The translations under genes and the position numbers were made by a program. A stretch of DNA of 64,000 nt from Leptolyngbyaceae cyanobacterium JSC-12 (GTDB taxonomy: Bacteria; Cyanobacteriota; Cyanobacteriia; Leptolyngbyales; Leptolyngbyaceae), in the NCBI GenBank assembly GCA_000309945.1, contig CM001633.1, positions 2,816,199-2,880,198 of the forward strand, in the 5' to 3' direction. Of this stretch, positions 16,023 to 39,972 are shown one piece after another. Numbering within the stretch: position 1 is the stretch's first letter; each line of letters opens with the position of its first letter. The notes under the pieces are model-generated. The model saw only the letters and a program-made list of their open reading frames with translations, had not been told where the DNA came from and did no database searches.

Positions 16023-17492
<1,470 letters not shown>

Positions 17493-17660
17493 TTTGGCAA
17501 TCATATCATTGGAAATTTCCGAGAAGGGAAACCGTGCAGAAATGTGATGCTTTGTAGCGATCGCGGAGACACGTATGCATCTACCCAAATTTTCATGCGA
17601 AGTAATTGGCGCGATCGCCCCGCACCTGCCAGTCCTCACCCCTCCACAGCTCCGCCACAG

Positions 17661-35114: not shown

Positions 35115-38066
35115 TCAAAGCTTCAAGAGAGTTTCCCAGTCTTGAATTGCTTTTTCAGACCACATCCAGTTTTTGGCCAGGGCATCTGGACGGAAGTTCA
35201 CAGCATCATTTTGGAGCACCATCTGACGCCGCTTCAGTGCTGCATCCCGCAGGATGGCTTGCTGGTCAGGAGGTTGATTTTCGGCTGATTTCATCGCAGT
35301 CAACGCTAACCCCGCATAAGCCGTCAAGGTTTCGGGTTTGAAAGGGGCATTCGCTTGAGATGGCTGGTTGGGGTCAGCATTTTTGCCCGCAAGCCGTAGG
35401 GAGGTCCACCAAGTTTGCTCCGCTCGATCAAGCTTGCCCTGAGCATAGTAAGCAAATCCTAGGGCATTGAGCCGCTGAGGAGTAGGATCTGCTTTGACTG
35501 CCTTATCCCACAGTTCTCGTGCAGGTTCAGCGCTAGTATCTCGCTGTGCTAGCCAACGTTGCCATGCTAATCGCCCTTTCAAAAAAAGAATGGCTGGTTC
35601 CTCAGCATATTGGCTGGGAACTGCTTGCAACCAGCGGTCAGTATCCTCTAAAGCATTGGGTTTATTGTCAAGCAGGGTCGTAATCGCCTTTTCTGCCTCT
35701 GCCACATTGCCTTTTTGCAGTTCCTCGGTTGCCAAGGTGGTTAGGACAGATGGGGGCAGGTGCTTGAGTGGGTTGCTGGGTTCAGCAGAGGTTGAATTAG
35801 AAAAGTTGGGGAGCGGCAACAGGGGAGCCAGCTTATCCCAATAAAACCAGCTTGCAAGTGCAGCAGATAGCGCGATCGCTCCTACTCCACCCCACAACCA
35901 CACGTTACGAGGTTTAGCTAAGGTCGTCACAAGTTTTGCTGCAGGTTGGGGCTTTTGAATTGGTAGCGATGGGGAAATAGGCACGGGGGGATTCCCCTGA
36001 TCACTTAAAGCATTACGCAGATTCGTACTAGCTTCGGTAAGCGTGGGGTCAAGCTGAACAGCGCGGCTATATGCCTTGATGGCTTCATTGACTTTGCCCT
36101 GCTGGTAAAATGCTAACCCTAGCCGATTGAATGCGATCGCACAGCCAGAGTCTAACCGAATTGCCTGGTTATAAGCTGCGATCGCTTCTGTTAAATACCC
36201 TTTTTGATATAACGCCCAACCCAGGTTGGTATACGCTTCCACGCTGTTCGGATTTTCCTGGACTGCTCGACTCCCTGCCGTAATTTCGTCCGTCAGAGTG
36301 CCCATGTCCGCCAGCACATTCTCCAATTCTGAGTAAACCTTGGTGTCATCGACATCCAATAGCGCATCAGCAGGTCGGGAACTGAGCAACGCAGAACTGC
36401 CAGAACGAACGTTGCCAGAGGCAGTGGAAGTGCCATATTGCCCTGCATTCAAGGCTTGGAAATATTCTTCCTGTTTTGGTTTACCCCTTGAGGTAGGCAA
36501 CAAACTTTCAGCCGCTGAAGCAGGCAGCATCGGTTCCTCTGGCTCCAACAAAGTTGGACTATGAGAAAGCTCATGCACAAGTTGCGCCACTCGTTCTTCT
36601 TCCGGGGGATCAGGGTCATCAAATTCCAGGTCGTCAAAATCAGGAACAGCCTCTTGATCGATTAACACTGAACCCGTGTGAACATCAGCAGCAGGAGAGG
36701 AAGCAACCACTGAGGGATCTGCTTGGGTTAGGACGGGCGATCGCCCGTTTTCAAACCCAGCCTCGCCAGGCTCGATGCCTAACACCGGCGTCTCAAACGT
36801 GTTATAAAACCCGCTGTAGCCCACGCCAGCAAACGGTGGCTCAACTGATTGGGCAGAGTGACTTACTAAGGGTTGTAAGAACCCATCAAACTCTGGATGT
36901 AAATATAGAATGGGCAACGCCCAGTAGAGTTGATCTGACCCGTAGGAAGAAACCAATCCCTGGCGAGTACGGCTCAAGCTCAAATCAATCGGATAAGCCT
37001 GTTTCAAGTTCCGGTAAAACAATCGACTCAGGTTCAATGCCACATCATCAGGAATCCGCTCTGCCATCGCCAACACCGCTGGAATTCCCCGCCTGACCAG
37101 TGATTCTGCCAGATTACCCTCACCTGTTTGCCCAGAGTCGGCAGTTGCTGTGTAAACGCCCCGGCATGAGTTAAAGACTGCCATCCGCACACCGTTATTC
37201 ACTAGCAAGCCAGCCAGATCTTCTCCGCTCAAAACCTCGGTAAGCCCAGTTCGATTATTCACCAGGTAAAGACTGCCACCTGCTGCACTAAGGTCGCTAT
37301 GCCCAGCATAATGCAGCACCTGGTAATGATTATGTTCAAGCGCCTGAGTTAACTCTTCCCGTCCCGGTTGTTCTAAAATCGTGAGTTCGATCGCTGAAAA
37401 TTGACTTACACTCGTTTGAGTAGTGGCTTTGAGTTCCTGTTGCAAATGGGCTGCCTCTTGTCTCAGCGCCAGCACTTCCTGATCACTAGGAGCCGATAAC
37501 ACCATCAAAATCTTCAATGCCTGACTTGAATCTCCCGTAACCGCTTTGCGGAACGGTTGATGAGATTTGAGAACTGCAAAACTGGAATGATAGCGAGAAA
37601 AGATCACCTCAGTACCCGTTGCCAAAGGGCGATCGCCCGCATACAGAACTTCCCAAGGTAACCGATGCAACTTTGTGCCCTTCAACCCCAACCGAAACCG
37701 CAAACGCTGGTGCTGATGTTGAGCAATTCCCTGCGCCATCATCCAACTATCCCGAATCGTGCCCTGGAACAGCGCATTGTAAAGCCGTTGTCCAAATGCG
37801 ACTAAGTTAGCAGCAGCTTTGCTTTGATTCAGTGATGAGAATGCCGATGTCCTGTTTTGAATAGATCCAGTATCAGAACCAATCCCACTCCGCAATAGCC
37901 CAATCAATGGGTCACCCATCAACAGCCCTGCTTCAGTGAGCCAATCATCTACATACCAAATCAAATGCTCCTCTGCCAATGGCACCCCAGGCGCAACCTG
38001 TTCAGTCCGCACCAAATACTCGTTATCTCGAATTGGTGTTATGGAGAGATGAAATTCCTGGGTCAC
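35115..38066 (-). CDS. CHAT-domain protease with TPR repeats and a membrane helix
   Basis: A 983-residue caspase-like protein starting with GTG. The CHAT domain occupies about 180-400 with the catalytic dyad visible: His in LHYAGHSD (H252/H256) and Cys in VFNSCRG (C301). A disordered acidic linker (about 430-590) follows, then two or three TPR units (ENPNSVEAYTNLGWALYQKG, KVNEAIKAYSRAVQLDPTL), one transmembrane helix near 745 (LWGGVGAIALSAALASWFYW) and further TPRs (AEKAITTLLDNKP, KADPTPQRLNALGFAYYAQG). CHAT-TPR proteins include Craspase-type and predicted conflict proteases. Here no CRISPR or other effector is adjacent; the kinase and the 34224 protein are the nearest neighbours. Confidence 0.9.
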   Translation of the reverse strand: MTQEFHLSITPIRDNEYLVRTEQVAPGVPLAEEHLIWYVDDWLTEAGLLMGDPLIGLLRSGIGSDTGSIQNRTSAFSSLNQSKAAANLVAFGQRLYNALFQGTIRDSWMMAQGIAQHQHQRLRFRLGLKGTKLHRLPWEVLYAGDRPLATGTEVIFSRYHSSFAVLKSHQPFRKAVTGDSSQALKILMVLSAPSDQEVLALRQEAAHLQQELKATTQTSVSQFSAIELTILEQPGREELTQALEHNHYQVLHYAGHSDLSAAGGSLYLVNNRTGLTEVLSGEDLAGLLVNNGVRMAVFNSCRGVYTATADSGQTGEGNLAESLVRRGIPAVLAMAERIPDDVALNLSRLFYRNLKQAYPIDLSLSRTRQGLVSSYGSDQLYWALPILYLHPEFDGFLQPLVSHSAQSVEPPFAGVGYSGFYNTFETPVLGIEPGEAGFENGRSPVLTQADPSVVASSPAADVHTGSVLIDQEAVPDFDDLEFDDPDPPEEERVAQLVHELSHSPTLLEPEEPMLPASAAESLLPTSRGKPKQEEYFQALNAGQYGTSTASGNVRSGSSALLSSRPADALLDVDDTKVYSELENVLADMGTLTDEITAGSRAVQENPNSVEAYTNLGWALYQKGYLTEAIAAYNQAIRLDSGCAIAFNRLGLAFYQQGKVNEAIKAYSRAVQLDPTLTEASTNLRNALSDQGNPPVPISPSLPIQKPQPAAKLVTTLAKPRNVWLWGGVGAIALSAALASWFYWDKLAPLLPLPNFSNSTSAEPSNPLKHLPPSVLTTLATEELQKGNVAEAEKAITTLLDNKPNALEDTDRWLQAVPSQYAEEPAILFLKGRLAWQRWLAQRDTSAEPARELWDKAVKADPTPQRLNALGFAYYAQGKLDRAEQTWWTSLRLAGKNADPNQPSQANAPFKPETLTAYAGLALTAMKSAENQPPDQQAILRDAALKRRQMVLQNDAVNFRPDALAKNWMWSEKAIQDWETLLKL

Positions 38067-38394
38067 AATACCCCTCCCAGAAAACGGTGGATGCGCAGCC
38101 TGTATACATGGACGTACAGTTCTTCAGAAGAGCTTCTAAAATTGAACCGCACTACCCCTCTTTGTTTAAATCAACAGTTGAGGGAAGGTATCAGGCTGAA
38201 ATTGAAATTACTGGATCAACTGTCCGTCTCTCAGTGTACCCAGATTTAACTGGCAGAAAGCAAACCCTCGATTAAATGACAGCACAAGCGACTTAGAACC
38301 TTCCTCCACTCTCGCTCATTCATAGCATTTCAGCAATTCTGACGAGCAATTTATTAAAACTTTGCGAAAATAAATACTGAAAGCTTTGTCTAGC

Positions 38395-38578
38395 TTGACA
38401 CGCAACCTCCGGGAACAGCTTATCCTCGTCCAATCGTTACCAAAACTTTAAGTCAAGCCAGATAAACTTCAACGTTTCTCCATACAACTCTCCGGACGGG
38501 TTGGCTAAGCCAGGGAATTCAGTAGGTGGTAGATGCACCCTGATTTGGCACCCCAACTCAGCAATGGGTTGGGGTTTT
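38395..38578 (+). ncRNA. candidate small RNA or leader attenuator
   Basis: A 5' stretch with a TTGACA at 38395-38400 leads, through a region with small hairpins (GGTTGGCTAAGCC near 38500), to a textbook terminator: CCCCAACTCA (38551-38560), GCAA loop, TGGGTTGGGG (38565-38574) and TTTT. The next gene (thioredoxin-like) starts 56 bases later in the same direction. This is therefore either a free-standing small RNA or a conditional terminator in that gene's leader. No known riboswitch class was recognised. The remaining 38067-38394 sequence shows no convincing gene. Confidence 0.5.
38551..38578 (+). terminator. rho-independent terminator upstream of the thioredoxin-like gene
   Basis: Ten-pair stem (one G-T) with a GCAA tetraloop followed by TTTT, as strong as any terminator in the window. 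Its position before, not after, the gene is what makes an attenuator or small RNA likely. Confidence 0.8.
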
Positions 38579-38633
38579 CTCATCCCTCGTCGGCATAGAA
38601 TACAGAAAAATCACCTTTGGAGATGCTGACAAT

Positions 38634-38951
38634 ATGGAACGTGCTGTAATCAAATTCTCTTCAGAAGATTGTGGAATTTGCCACAAGATGTCATTTTATG
38701 ACCAAAAAGTAGTTGAGGAATTGGGTTTGCAATTTATCGATTGCAAGATGCAAGACACAGCAACCTATCGCAAATATCGCAAGATTTTGTTAACTCAATA
38801 TCCAGACAAAGCAGAAATGGGTTGGCCCACTTATATCATCTGCGATGCACCTGAAACGGATGACTTCAAAATTATTGGAGAAGTTAAAGGAGGACATCCT
38901 AAAGGAGAATTTAGAAGTCGATTGCAAGCAGTGTTAGGCGAAATGAACTAG
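38634..38951 (+). CDS. thioredoxin-like protein (CGIC active site)
   Basis: A 105-residue thioredoxin-fold protein with the redox motif in FSSEDCGICHKM (CGIC instead of the usual CGPC), no signal peptide, and the cis-proline loop in MGWPTYIICD. The fold continues with FKIIGEVKGGHPKGEF. Missing Trp before the active site and the altered dipeptide suggest a specialised reductant or thiol-disulfide regulator rather than a general thioredoxin. It is transcribed alone after the terminator-like leader, and two ill-defined hairpins follow it. Confidence 0.85.
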   Translation: MERAVIKFSSEDCGICHKMSFYDQKVVEELGLQFIDCKMQDTATYRKYRKILLTQYPDKAEMGWPTYIICDAPETDDFKIIGEVKGGHPKGEFRSRLQAVLGEMN

Positions 38952-39381
38952 AAATAAAACTGCCCCGCAGTCGAGCTACCGCAGGGCATAGAGGTACAGT
39001 TAAACGCTTGTTGAATTTAGTATGGCGGAGTTTTTCGCAGGTGATATACCGTTATGTGACGATTAATTGATTGTCCAGTCACTAGTCACCTTTGACTATC
39101 TGCAAATCTGGAGTTTTTCCTGAAAAATATCTCTAGATTTCAAAGTAGATGCCGTTAAGGTGTATCAAAAACAGTAACCAGATAATGAACCGCTGAAATC
39201 CTTCATAGGATATGACTACACCTCATGCACTGACATGCAATTAGCAGCCTCGCTGGCTGCTTTTTTATCGCCTTGGTCAAGCAAGCTCATGACACAGCCC
39301 TTCTTCAAATGCCGATTCTGGGTAGGCTTTTTAGCTCACTTCTGCCATATTGCACATGATAATGGCTACATTGCAAAAATT
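38952..39381. other. intergenic region holding a possible small transcript
   Basis: 430 bp without a credible gene. A ten-codon frame (ATG at 39212) stops right at the base of the strong terminator at 39243-39266, reminiscent of a leader peptide, but no plus-strand gene follows. It is either the 3' end of the thioredoxin-like mRNA or a small RNA. A plus-strand frame at 39235-39426 runs through the terminator and is not considered real. Confidence 0.4.
39243..39266 (+). terminator. rho-independent terminator
   Basis: AGCAGCC (39243-39249), loop TCGCT, GGCTGCT (39255-39261) followed by a T6 run. It ends a plus-strand transcript about 290 bases beyond the thioredoxin-like gene. Confidence 0.88.
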
Positions 39382-39972
39382 TCAAAAAATGGTGTTACTT
39401 GCCCAACCAATCGCCAGCCCAACTAGCGAAATTGAAATCAAAATCCAAAATGCTTGGACTCCACTTAGTCCTAAACATTGAATATCAATTCTGGCCAGTA
39501 CATCTACTGCCAGGATGGTGAGAATTTGGAGGAAGATATGCAGCCAATAGAGAATCACCGCTGCCATGGCTGCCAGCATAAATAGTGTCATAAACGCGAC
39601 TGCATCTGACTTAAACCAGCGACTAATGAAAGCGCTGAAGTTTGTTAGAGGCGAAATAAATGCCATTGAGGATGCAAAAATCCAGCCAACTGCAAGTAAT
39701 CCAGCAATTAAATTGCGCTCAACGATAGCATTACAGGCAGATTTCCTGGTGTTGAACGCTAAATCCTGGTAAGGCTGCTCAGTCATAGTGGTGCTTTGAG
39801 TGCCCGGAGACATGGTTGGTTGGGCTGGAACACCCAAGACTCGATAGCAGGCTGACCTAAGCCAGGCAGGTTTAGCTTGTAAACCTGATAAATACCAACC
39901 GAACCAGGTGTAGCAAATGAACAACAGGGTTAAAGAAATCCAGGTAAAGCGCTTCAGGTTGACAGATGCCAT
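39382..39972 (-). CDS. four-pass membrane protein, unknown function
   Basis: 196 residues with a first membrane helix at about 11-29 (ISLTLLFICYTWFGWYLSG), a soluble loop containing several cysteines (ACYRVLGVPAQP, KSACNAIVERN), then three further hydrophobic segments (AGLLAVGWIFASSMAFISPL, MTLFMLAAMAAVILYWLHIF, AFWILISISLVGLAIGWA). No family recognised. It probably forms a minus-strand group with the next two genes (46 bp, then an overlap). Confidence 0.65.
   Translation of the reverse strand: MASVNLKRFTWISLTLLFICYTWFGWYLSGLQAKPAWLRSACYRVLGVPAQPTMSPGTQSTTMTEQPYQDLAFNTRKSACNAIVERNLIAGLLAVGWIFASSMAFISPLTNFSAFISRWFKSDAVAFMTLFMLAAMAAVILYWLHIFLQILTILAVDVLARIDIQCLGLSGVQAFWILISISLVGLAIGWASNTIF

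Follow-up and report, generated by a model that had tools for sequence, protein, structure and literature searches.

A predicted NsiR1-family small RNA gene beside a hetF-like gene in Leptolyngbyaceae cyanobacterium JSC-12, and the association of the family with HetR

The NsiR1 family of small RNAs is described as specific to nitrogen-fixing heterocyst cells. In Nostoc PCC 7120, NsiR1 is an array of 12 copies upstream of hetF, each behind its own DIF1 promoter; NsiR1.1, antisense to the 5' UTR of hetF, is a repressor of that gene, and alr3234 is repressed by NsiR1.4 (PMC9045159). Antisense reads are reported at the hetF 5' UTR (PMC3141674), and the transcription start of hetF in Nostoc is placed at -256 (PMC8406250). 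In Nostoc, heterocyst-specific promoters carry the DIF1 motif TCCGGA (PMC6133370), and DIF1 promoters are HetZ-dependent and hence HetR-dependent there (PMC7377430). For the hetP promoter, the HetR site has been published as GAGGGGTCTAACCCCTC, and GGGnnnnnCCC is given as its required form (PMC4192349). A 57-nt NsiR1-like RNA (RNA162) is noted in passing in RNA-seq data of the non-heterocystous Limnospira indica PCC 8005 (PMC8400943), and PatX, an element linked to HetR, is described as older than heterocysts (PMC7761841, PMC11298460).

The DNA analyzed here, referred to as the window, is a stretch of 64,000 nucleotides from JSC-12. A search with the Rfam covariance models reveals a match to NsiR1 (RF02399) at 38527-38582(+), which scores 51.2 bits, above the gathering score of 39, and covers the model from end to end (positions 1-60 of 60). 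The original prediction held that no known class fits this element, a statement that the Rfam assignment overturns; judged from its sequence, the element is a new member of the NsiR1 family at a known genomic place. The features of the locus are listed below.

35115..38066, minus strand: hetF-like gene, 983 aa, with a CHAT domain and TPRs (Pfam), divergent from NsiR1
38491..38496, plus strand: DIF1 promoter motif TCCGGA, starting 36 bases 5' of the predicted RNA 5' end
38513..38517, plus strand: candidate extended -10 element GGGAA, from comparison of the sequence with the position profile; weak and one base out of register
38527..38582, plus strand: NsiR1-family small RNA gene (Rfam RF02399), predicted transcript of about 56 nt
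38529..38544, plus strand: 16-nt core GTAGATGCACCCTGAT, common to all five copies of the JSC-12 genome
38550..38575, plus strand: terminator hairpin of 11 pairs (6 G-C) with loop GCAA, followed by TTTTC
38634..38951, plus strand: gene of a 105-aa CGIC protein, a separate downstream neighbor of NsiR1

The element resembles NsiR1 of PCC 7120 in its core, its length of approximately 60 nt, its terminator, the DIF1 motif near -35, its place and orientation beside hetF and the presence of multiple copies in the genome. Unlike the 12-copy array, JSC-12 has a single copy at hetF and its further copies are dispersed: the core has one match in the window even when three mismatches are allowed, and no tandem repeats were found around the copy (38000-39700). 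The start codon of the hetF-like gene lies 460 nt from the NsiR1 5' end, whereas the corresponding gap in Nostoc-type loci is approximately 180 nt. Additionally, the JSC-12 lineage differs from Nostoc in that it is, by kinship, presumably non-heterocystous.

The predicted terminator hairpin with a GCAA loop and T-run is borne out, except that the stem has 11 pairs and its end lies 58 bases 5' of the ATG at 38634; the interval 37500-39800 contains 7 terminator-like sites, where shuffles average 2.3. The 56-nt unit folds with a z of -1.96, and 6 of 200 shuffles are equally good. The structured region of approximately 150 bases that had been proposed 5' of the hairpin is not recovered, as 38395-38548 folds no better than chance (-28.3 kcal/mol, where the shuffles average -34.1 kcal/mol; z +1.58, with 192 of 200 shuffles at least as stable), and the Rfam search of the window found no riboswitch family at these positions.

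Promoters and terminators were then compared across family copies selected by their core, in part from listed matches and thus as a non-random sample; conservation of the core is therefore given by construction, which does not apply to the promoter and terminator results. Outside the array family, 110 of 164 distinct copies have TCCGGA beginning between -40 and -34 relative to the core, where shuffles give 0.2, and when one mismatch is permitted the count rises to 141 of 164 (4.0 expected). In the array family the motif occupies the same positions in 128 of 176 copies, or in 171 of 176 with at most one mismatch. A position profile of the copies outside the array family additionally reveals a conserved GAA at the candidate -10 position. 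Terminators were counted on a larger locus set than promoters: the core is followed by a hairpin in 203 of 204 copies outside the array family, compared with 26 of 204 when the tails are shuffled, and these copies carry 158 different terminator arms; in the array family the hairpin follows in 140 of 174 copies (9 with shuffled tails).

The ORF at 35115-38066(-) has NF045509 (CellDiv_HetF) as its best match among 12 NCBIfam families, with 796 bits and an E of 3.9e-239. Because this score is below the equivalog cut-off of 1200 bits for NF045509, "cell division protein HetF", the product is named HetF-like. Residues His256 and Cys301, which presumably constitute its catalytic pair, are invariant in 12 aligned relatives. 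The nearest named relative of the gene, among the best 80 of 389 matches, is from a "Leptolyngbyaceae cyanobacterium", with 89% over 420 aa. Within the same best 80 of 389, a divergent NsiR1 (at most three mismatches) is present upstream of hetF in 48 loci of named genomes, 40 of which lie outside the 8 Nostoc-type loci; among the 32 loci without NsiR1, four include less than 500 bases of upstream sequence.

On the other side of NsiR1, the CGIC protein has no sequence match in Pfam, NCBIfam or the PDB and no match in the plasmid collection. The gene is nevertheless retained beside hetF from the relatives of JSC-12 to Nostoc. In 47 loci with a CGIC match, hetF is always on the opposite strand where its start is included, and all NsiR1 copies within 3 kb before CGIC are on the CGIC strand. 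The order hetF, NsiR1, CGIC is also present in Nostoc-type arrays, which indicates that the window locus corresponds to the hetF-NsiR1 locus of Nostoc.

Considered as a whole, the locus is best explained as an NsiR1-family small RNA gene with a DIF1-type promoter and a hairpin end, a separate CGIC gene downstream and probable control by the HetR circuit, a reading to which a probability of approximately 0.88 is assigned. An independent small RNA was one of the options in the original prediction, and this option is supported by the Rfam match, the promoter motif at the right distance, the conservation beside hetF and four further copies in the genome. It is possible in principle, and considered unlikely, that a discrete NsiR1 RNA coexists with a leaky terminator, such that read-through would supply some CGIC mRNA and weakly couple this gene to the HetR circuit in short-gap lineages. 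The shared strand, the modest T-run (TTTTC) and the short distances to CGIC in several relatives (101-190 nt, counted from the 5' end of NsiR1) are compatible with read-through, whereas the gaps of several hundred nucleotides or more in other lineages and the retention of CGIC where NsiR1 is missing speak against it.

The original prediction favored a riboswitch or attenuator, with the hairpin as a conditional terminator in the leader of the thioredoxin-like CGIC gene. The hairpin and T-run do lie in front of the CGIC start codon, in the same orientation, and a search of the interval between hairpin and gene gave no consensus sigma-70 promoter, but the structured domain such a leader would need is missing, Rfam names a small RNA at the site and no riboswitch, and the dispersed copies precede other genes. 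When the same leader was sought beside orthologous CGIC genes, the order was found to recur, including in Nostoc, but the distance from NsiR1 to CGIC ranges between 101 and 1486 nt among lineages with a single copy, and NsiR1 is absent between hetF and CGIC in 10 of the 47 loci (five from each of two locus sets, perhaps partly the same genomes). This variable spacing and absence speak against an obligatory leader element of CGIC, and the leader reading is regarded as very improbable; no observation points toward the redox or metabolite sensing that had been suggested with it. Least credible of all is a tiny protein gene from the ATG inside the core (ATGCACCCTGAT, MHPD...), which was rejected because, although ATGCACCCTGAT lies within the core of all copies found via the core and a stop follows after four codons in 39 of 204 non-array copies, the reading frame is lost beyond that point, with the first stop at many different codons and none within 23 codons in 96 of the 204.

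The small RNA gene of the window is not alone in JSC-12. In the genome searched (5.53 Mb, one contig, C1), RF02399 is over its cut-off at four sites, namely C1:2794789, 2854725 (the window copy), 3236296 and 2744938, and a fifth, weaker copy at C1:1357679 reaches 30.5 bits, which is under the Rfam cut-off. All five contain GTAGATGCACCCTGAT, and their hairpins and neighbors differ. Upstream of the core, three copies have TCCGGA, one has TCCTGA and the fifth has a G/C inverted repeat. In this fifth copy (1357638-1357735), a HetR-type inverted repeat stands in place of DIF1, and the copy follows an ORF that by eye resembles gatB.

The JSC-12 genome has a HetR gene, preceded by a small ORF with RGSGR, as expected of PatX (by eye). 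NsiR1 resembles PatX in being HetR-linked and differs from it in that PatX is a small protein and NsiR1 an RNA. Additionally, nifH is over its cut-off, and ORFs that by eye are NifU-like and NifD-like adjoin it. Two HetP-family genes (C1:1936944 and 1382515) each lie directly after an ORF that by eye resembles an HlyD-type secretion protein, with small ORFs nearby. The window also holds, at 17404-17496(-), a TPP riboswitch (RF00059; 68.4 bits, above the gathering score of 54.3).

A conserved, unpaired core at the 5' end of a short RNA, followed by a hairpin terminator, is the usual anatomy of a base-pairing small RNA. Transcription from the DIF1-type promoter, with TCCGGA near -35, would begin at about 38527 and stop at the hairpin (38550-38575), giving an RNA of approximately 56 nt and leaving the CGIC gene separate downstream; the unpaired 5' core would be the part that pairs with targets, with the hairpin serving as terminator. 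That the RNA is transcribed in JSC-12 is inferred. In cis, it would be antisense to any hetF transcript that starts beyond NsiR1, which needs a hetF 5' UTR longer than 460 nt. Given such a long 5' UTR, NsiR1 would probably damp hetF in the manner of NsiR1.1 in Nostoc PCC 7120; with the Nostoc hetF start at -256 and NsiR1 here 460 nt away, an antisense overlap at the window locus is uncertain.

The common core and the four further copies suggest that targets are probably shared in trans. The HetP-family mRNAs, of which alr3234 is the example in PCC 7120, were tried as such targets: the 5' 20 nt of NsiR1 give duplex z values from -3.0 to +2.2 with 26 HetP-family start regions and no consistent pairing site. 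A search of three genomes for near-full complements of the core (15-mer, at most two mismatches, with 5 self matches removed from each) yielded 7, 9 and 4 sites versus 6, 4 and 3 for the reversed control, which is no clear excess.

The small RNA is probably controlled by the HetR circuit, as suggested by the DIF1 or DIF1-like promoters of four of the five JSC-12 copies and the HetR-type operator of the fifth. This control is inferred from three lines of evidence: the co-occurrence of NsiR1 with HetR, the DIF1 promoters (HetZ/HetR-dependent in Nostoc) and the class of copies with an operator.

Co-occurrence was assessed in a single draw of 388 genomes from the class, with NsiR1 defined as RF02399 over its cut-off and HetR as PF03574. 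NsiR1 is present in 200 genomes and HetR in 195; 193 have both, 7 only NsiR1, 2 only HetR and 186 neither, and the Fisher values for this comparison and for the operator class treat related genomes as independent and are not taken as probabilities. When the 43 families are counted from their labels, 21 have both, two (f7 and f21) have NsiR1 only and 19 have neither; in family f37, HetR is accompanied by an NsiR1 copy below the cut-off. The association is therefore mostly a difference between clades. Five of the NsiR1-only genomes (G093, G243, G304, G367 and G385) are fragmented into 180 to 730 contigs, and two of these five are 62% and 70% complete. The remaining two, G006 and G021, are 99% complete, with NsiR1 present and a HetR match absent. 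Both encode a HetF-like protein, and one G006 copy has TCCGGA, the other copies examined having TCCTGA. The HetR-only genomes, G164 and G238, each contain one core copy below the cut-off, at 33.6 and 32.9 bits. Weak NsiR1 scores, with E from 1.5e-4 to 8.7e-4, also occur in nine genomes without HetR, and the E. coli control likewise gives a weak signal. All 42 genomes of the JSC-12 family contain the exact core, and none contains the reversed pattern.

Ten named genomes were additionally chosen from the hetF loci, and NsiR1 copies exceed the cut-off in every one; the number of matches at E <= 0.001 ranges between 5 and 34, and examples are Phormidesmis priestleyi ULC007 (5), Microcoleus vaginatus HSN003 (12), Coleofasciculus LEGE 07092 (14) and Moorena bouillonii PNG (34). 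None of the ten is from a genus known as heterocystous. Tandem runs of NsiR1 occur away from hetF in Moorena bouillonii PNG (C1:1196730-1199319) and Microcoleus vaginatus HSN003 (C1:6415020-6416203), which indicates that arrays are not special to Nostoc. NsiR1 is thus present in nearly all sampled HetR-bearing genomes, many of them from lineages not known as heterocyst formers.

The inverted repeat of the fifth JSC-12 copy proved to represent a class. Among 23 copies without a DIF1-like motif, 18 have a repeat like AGGGGTnnnACCCC. A pattern of repeat plus core, whose AGGG...CCCC is looser than the full HetR site, matches in 126 of 388 genomes, with 0 for the reversed control in every row. HetR is present in 122 of the 126, and the other four are the fragmented NsiR1-only genomes G093, G304, G367 and G385; 73 HetR genomes lack a match. 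By family, the pattern matches 36 of 42 genomes in that of JSC-12 and 8 of 23 in f32, the array family; the two HetR-only genomes are also among the matches. Of 50 distinct copies, 45 have GGGnnnnnCCC centered 35 bases upstream of the core, although the pattern permitted a range of 30 bases, and 48 are followed by a terminator. Three of the four operator-class copies with both a score and upstream sequence are below the Rfam cut-off (30.5, 33.6 and 32.9 bits; L005, L381 and L382), and the fourth, from Lyngbya CCAP 1446/10 (L375), is above it with 55.3 bits. The fifth JSC-12 copy and the matches in these 126 genomes resemble the hetP promoter of PCC 7120 in having an inverted repeat of the GAGGGGTCTAACCCCTC form, and differ from hetP in that the candidate HetR operator precedes an RNA with the NsiR1 core. 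The window copy belongs to the DIF1 class and has no HetR-type repeat. Identity of the operator copy with NsiR8 or NsiR9 of PCC 7120 is unlikely by length, the only property compared (171 and 122 nt in PMC4734099).

An NsiR1-like RNA outside heterocyst formers is already known from the passing mention in PMC8400943. RNA162, compared by its published description, parallels the present case in being an NsiR1-like RNA of a cyanobacterium without heterocysts, and its 57-nt RNA lends some support to expression in such organisms. The near one-to-one link between NsiR1 and HetR and the class with an operator at a fixed distance were not found in the passages of the literature searched, a scope that excludes the founding NsiR1 papers (Ionescu 2010, Muro-Pastor 2014, Mitschke 2011).

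Nearly all sampled HetR-bearing genomes keep the same 16-nt core, mostly behind DIF1-type promoter motifs, and well over half have at least one copy with a HetR-type operator. It is somewhat favored, on balance, that NsiR1 is not a heterocyst RNA by origin and is instead an old output of HetR in filamentous cyanobacteria; HetR, PatX and NsiR1 would then form a module older than heterocysts, in which NsiR1 was later amplified into arrays, by Nostoc beside hetF and by Moorena and Microcoleus elsewhere. Following deletion of hetR and patX in a non-heterocystous Leptolyngbya, the authors state that the functions of these genes where heterocysts are lacking "remain a mystery" (PMC11298460). That question gains a short and easily probed readout in an RNA family whose presence follows that of HetR across 388 genomes and which, in 126 of them, has a HetR-type operator before it. 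If the proposed history is true, NsiR1 changes from a heterocyst marker to an inherited part of an older HetR circuit.
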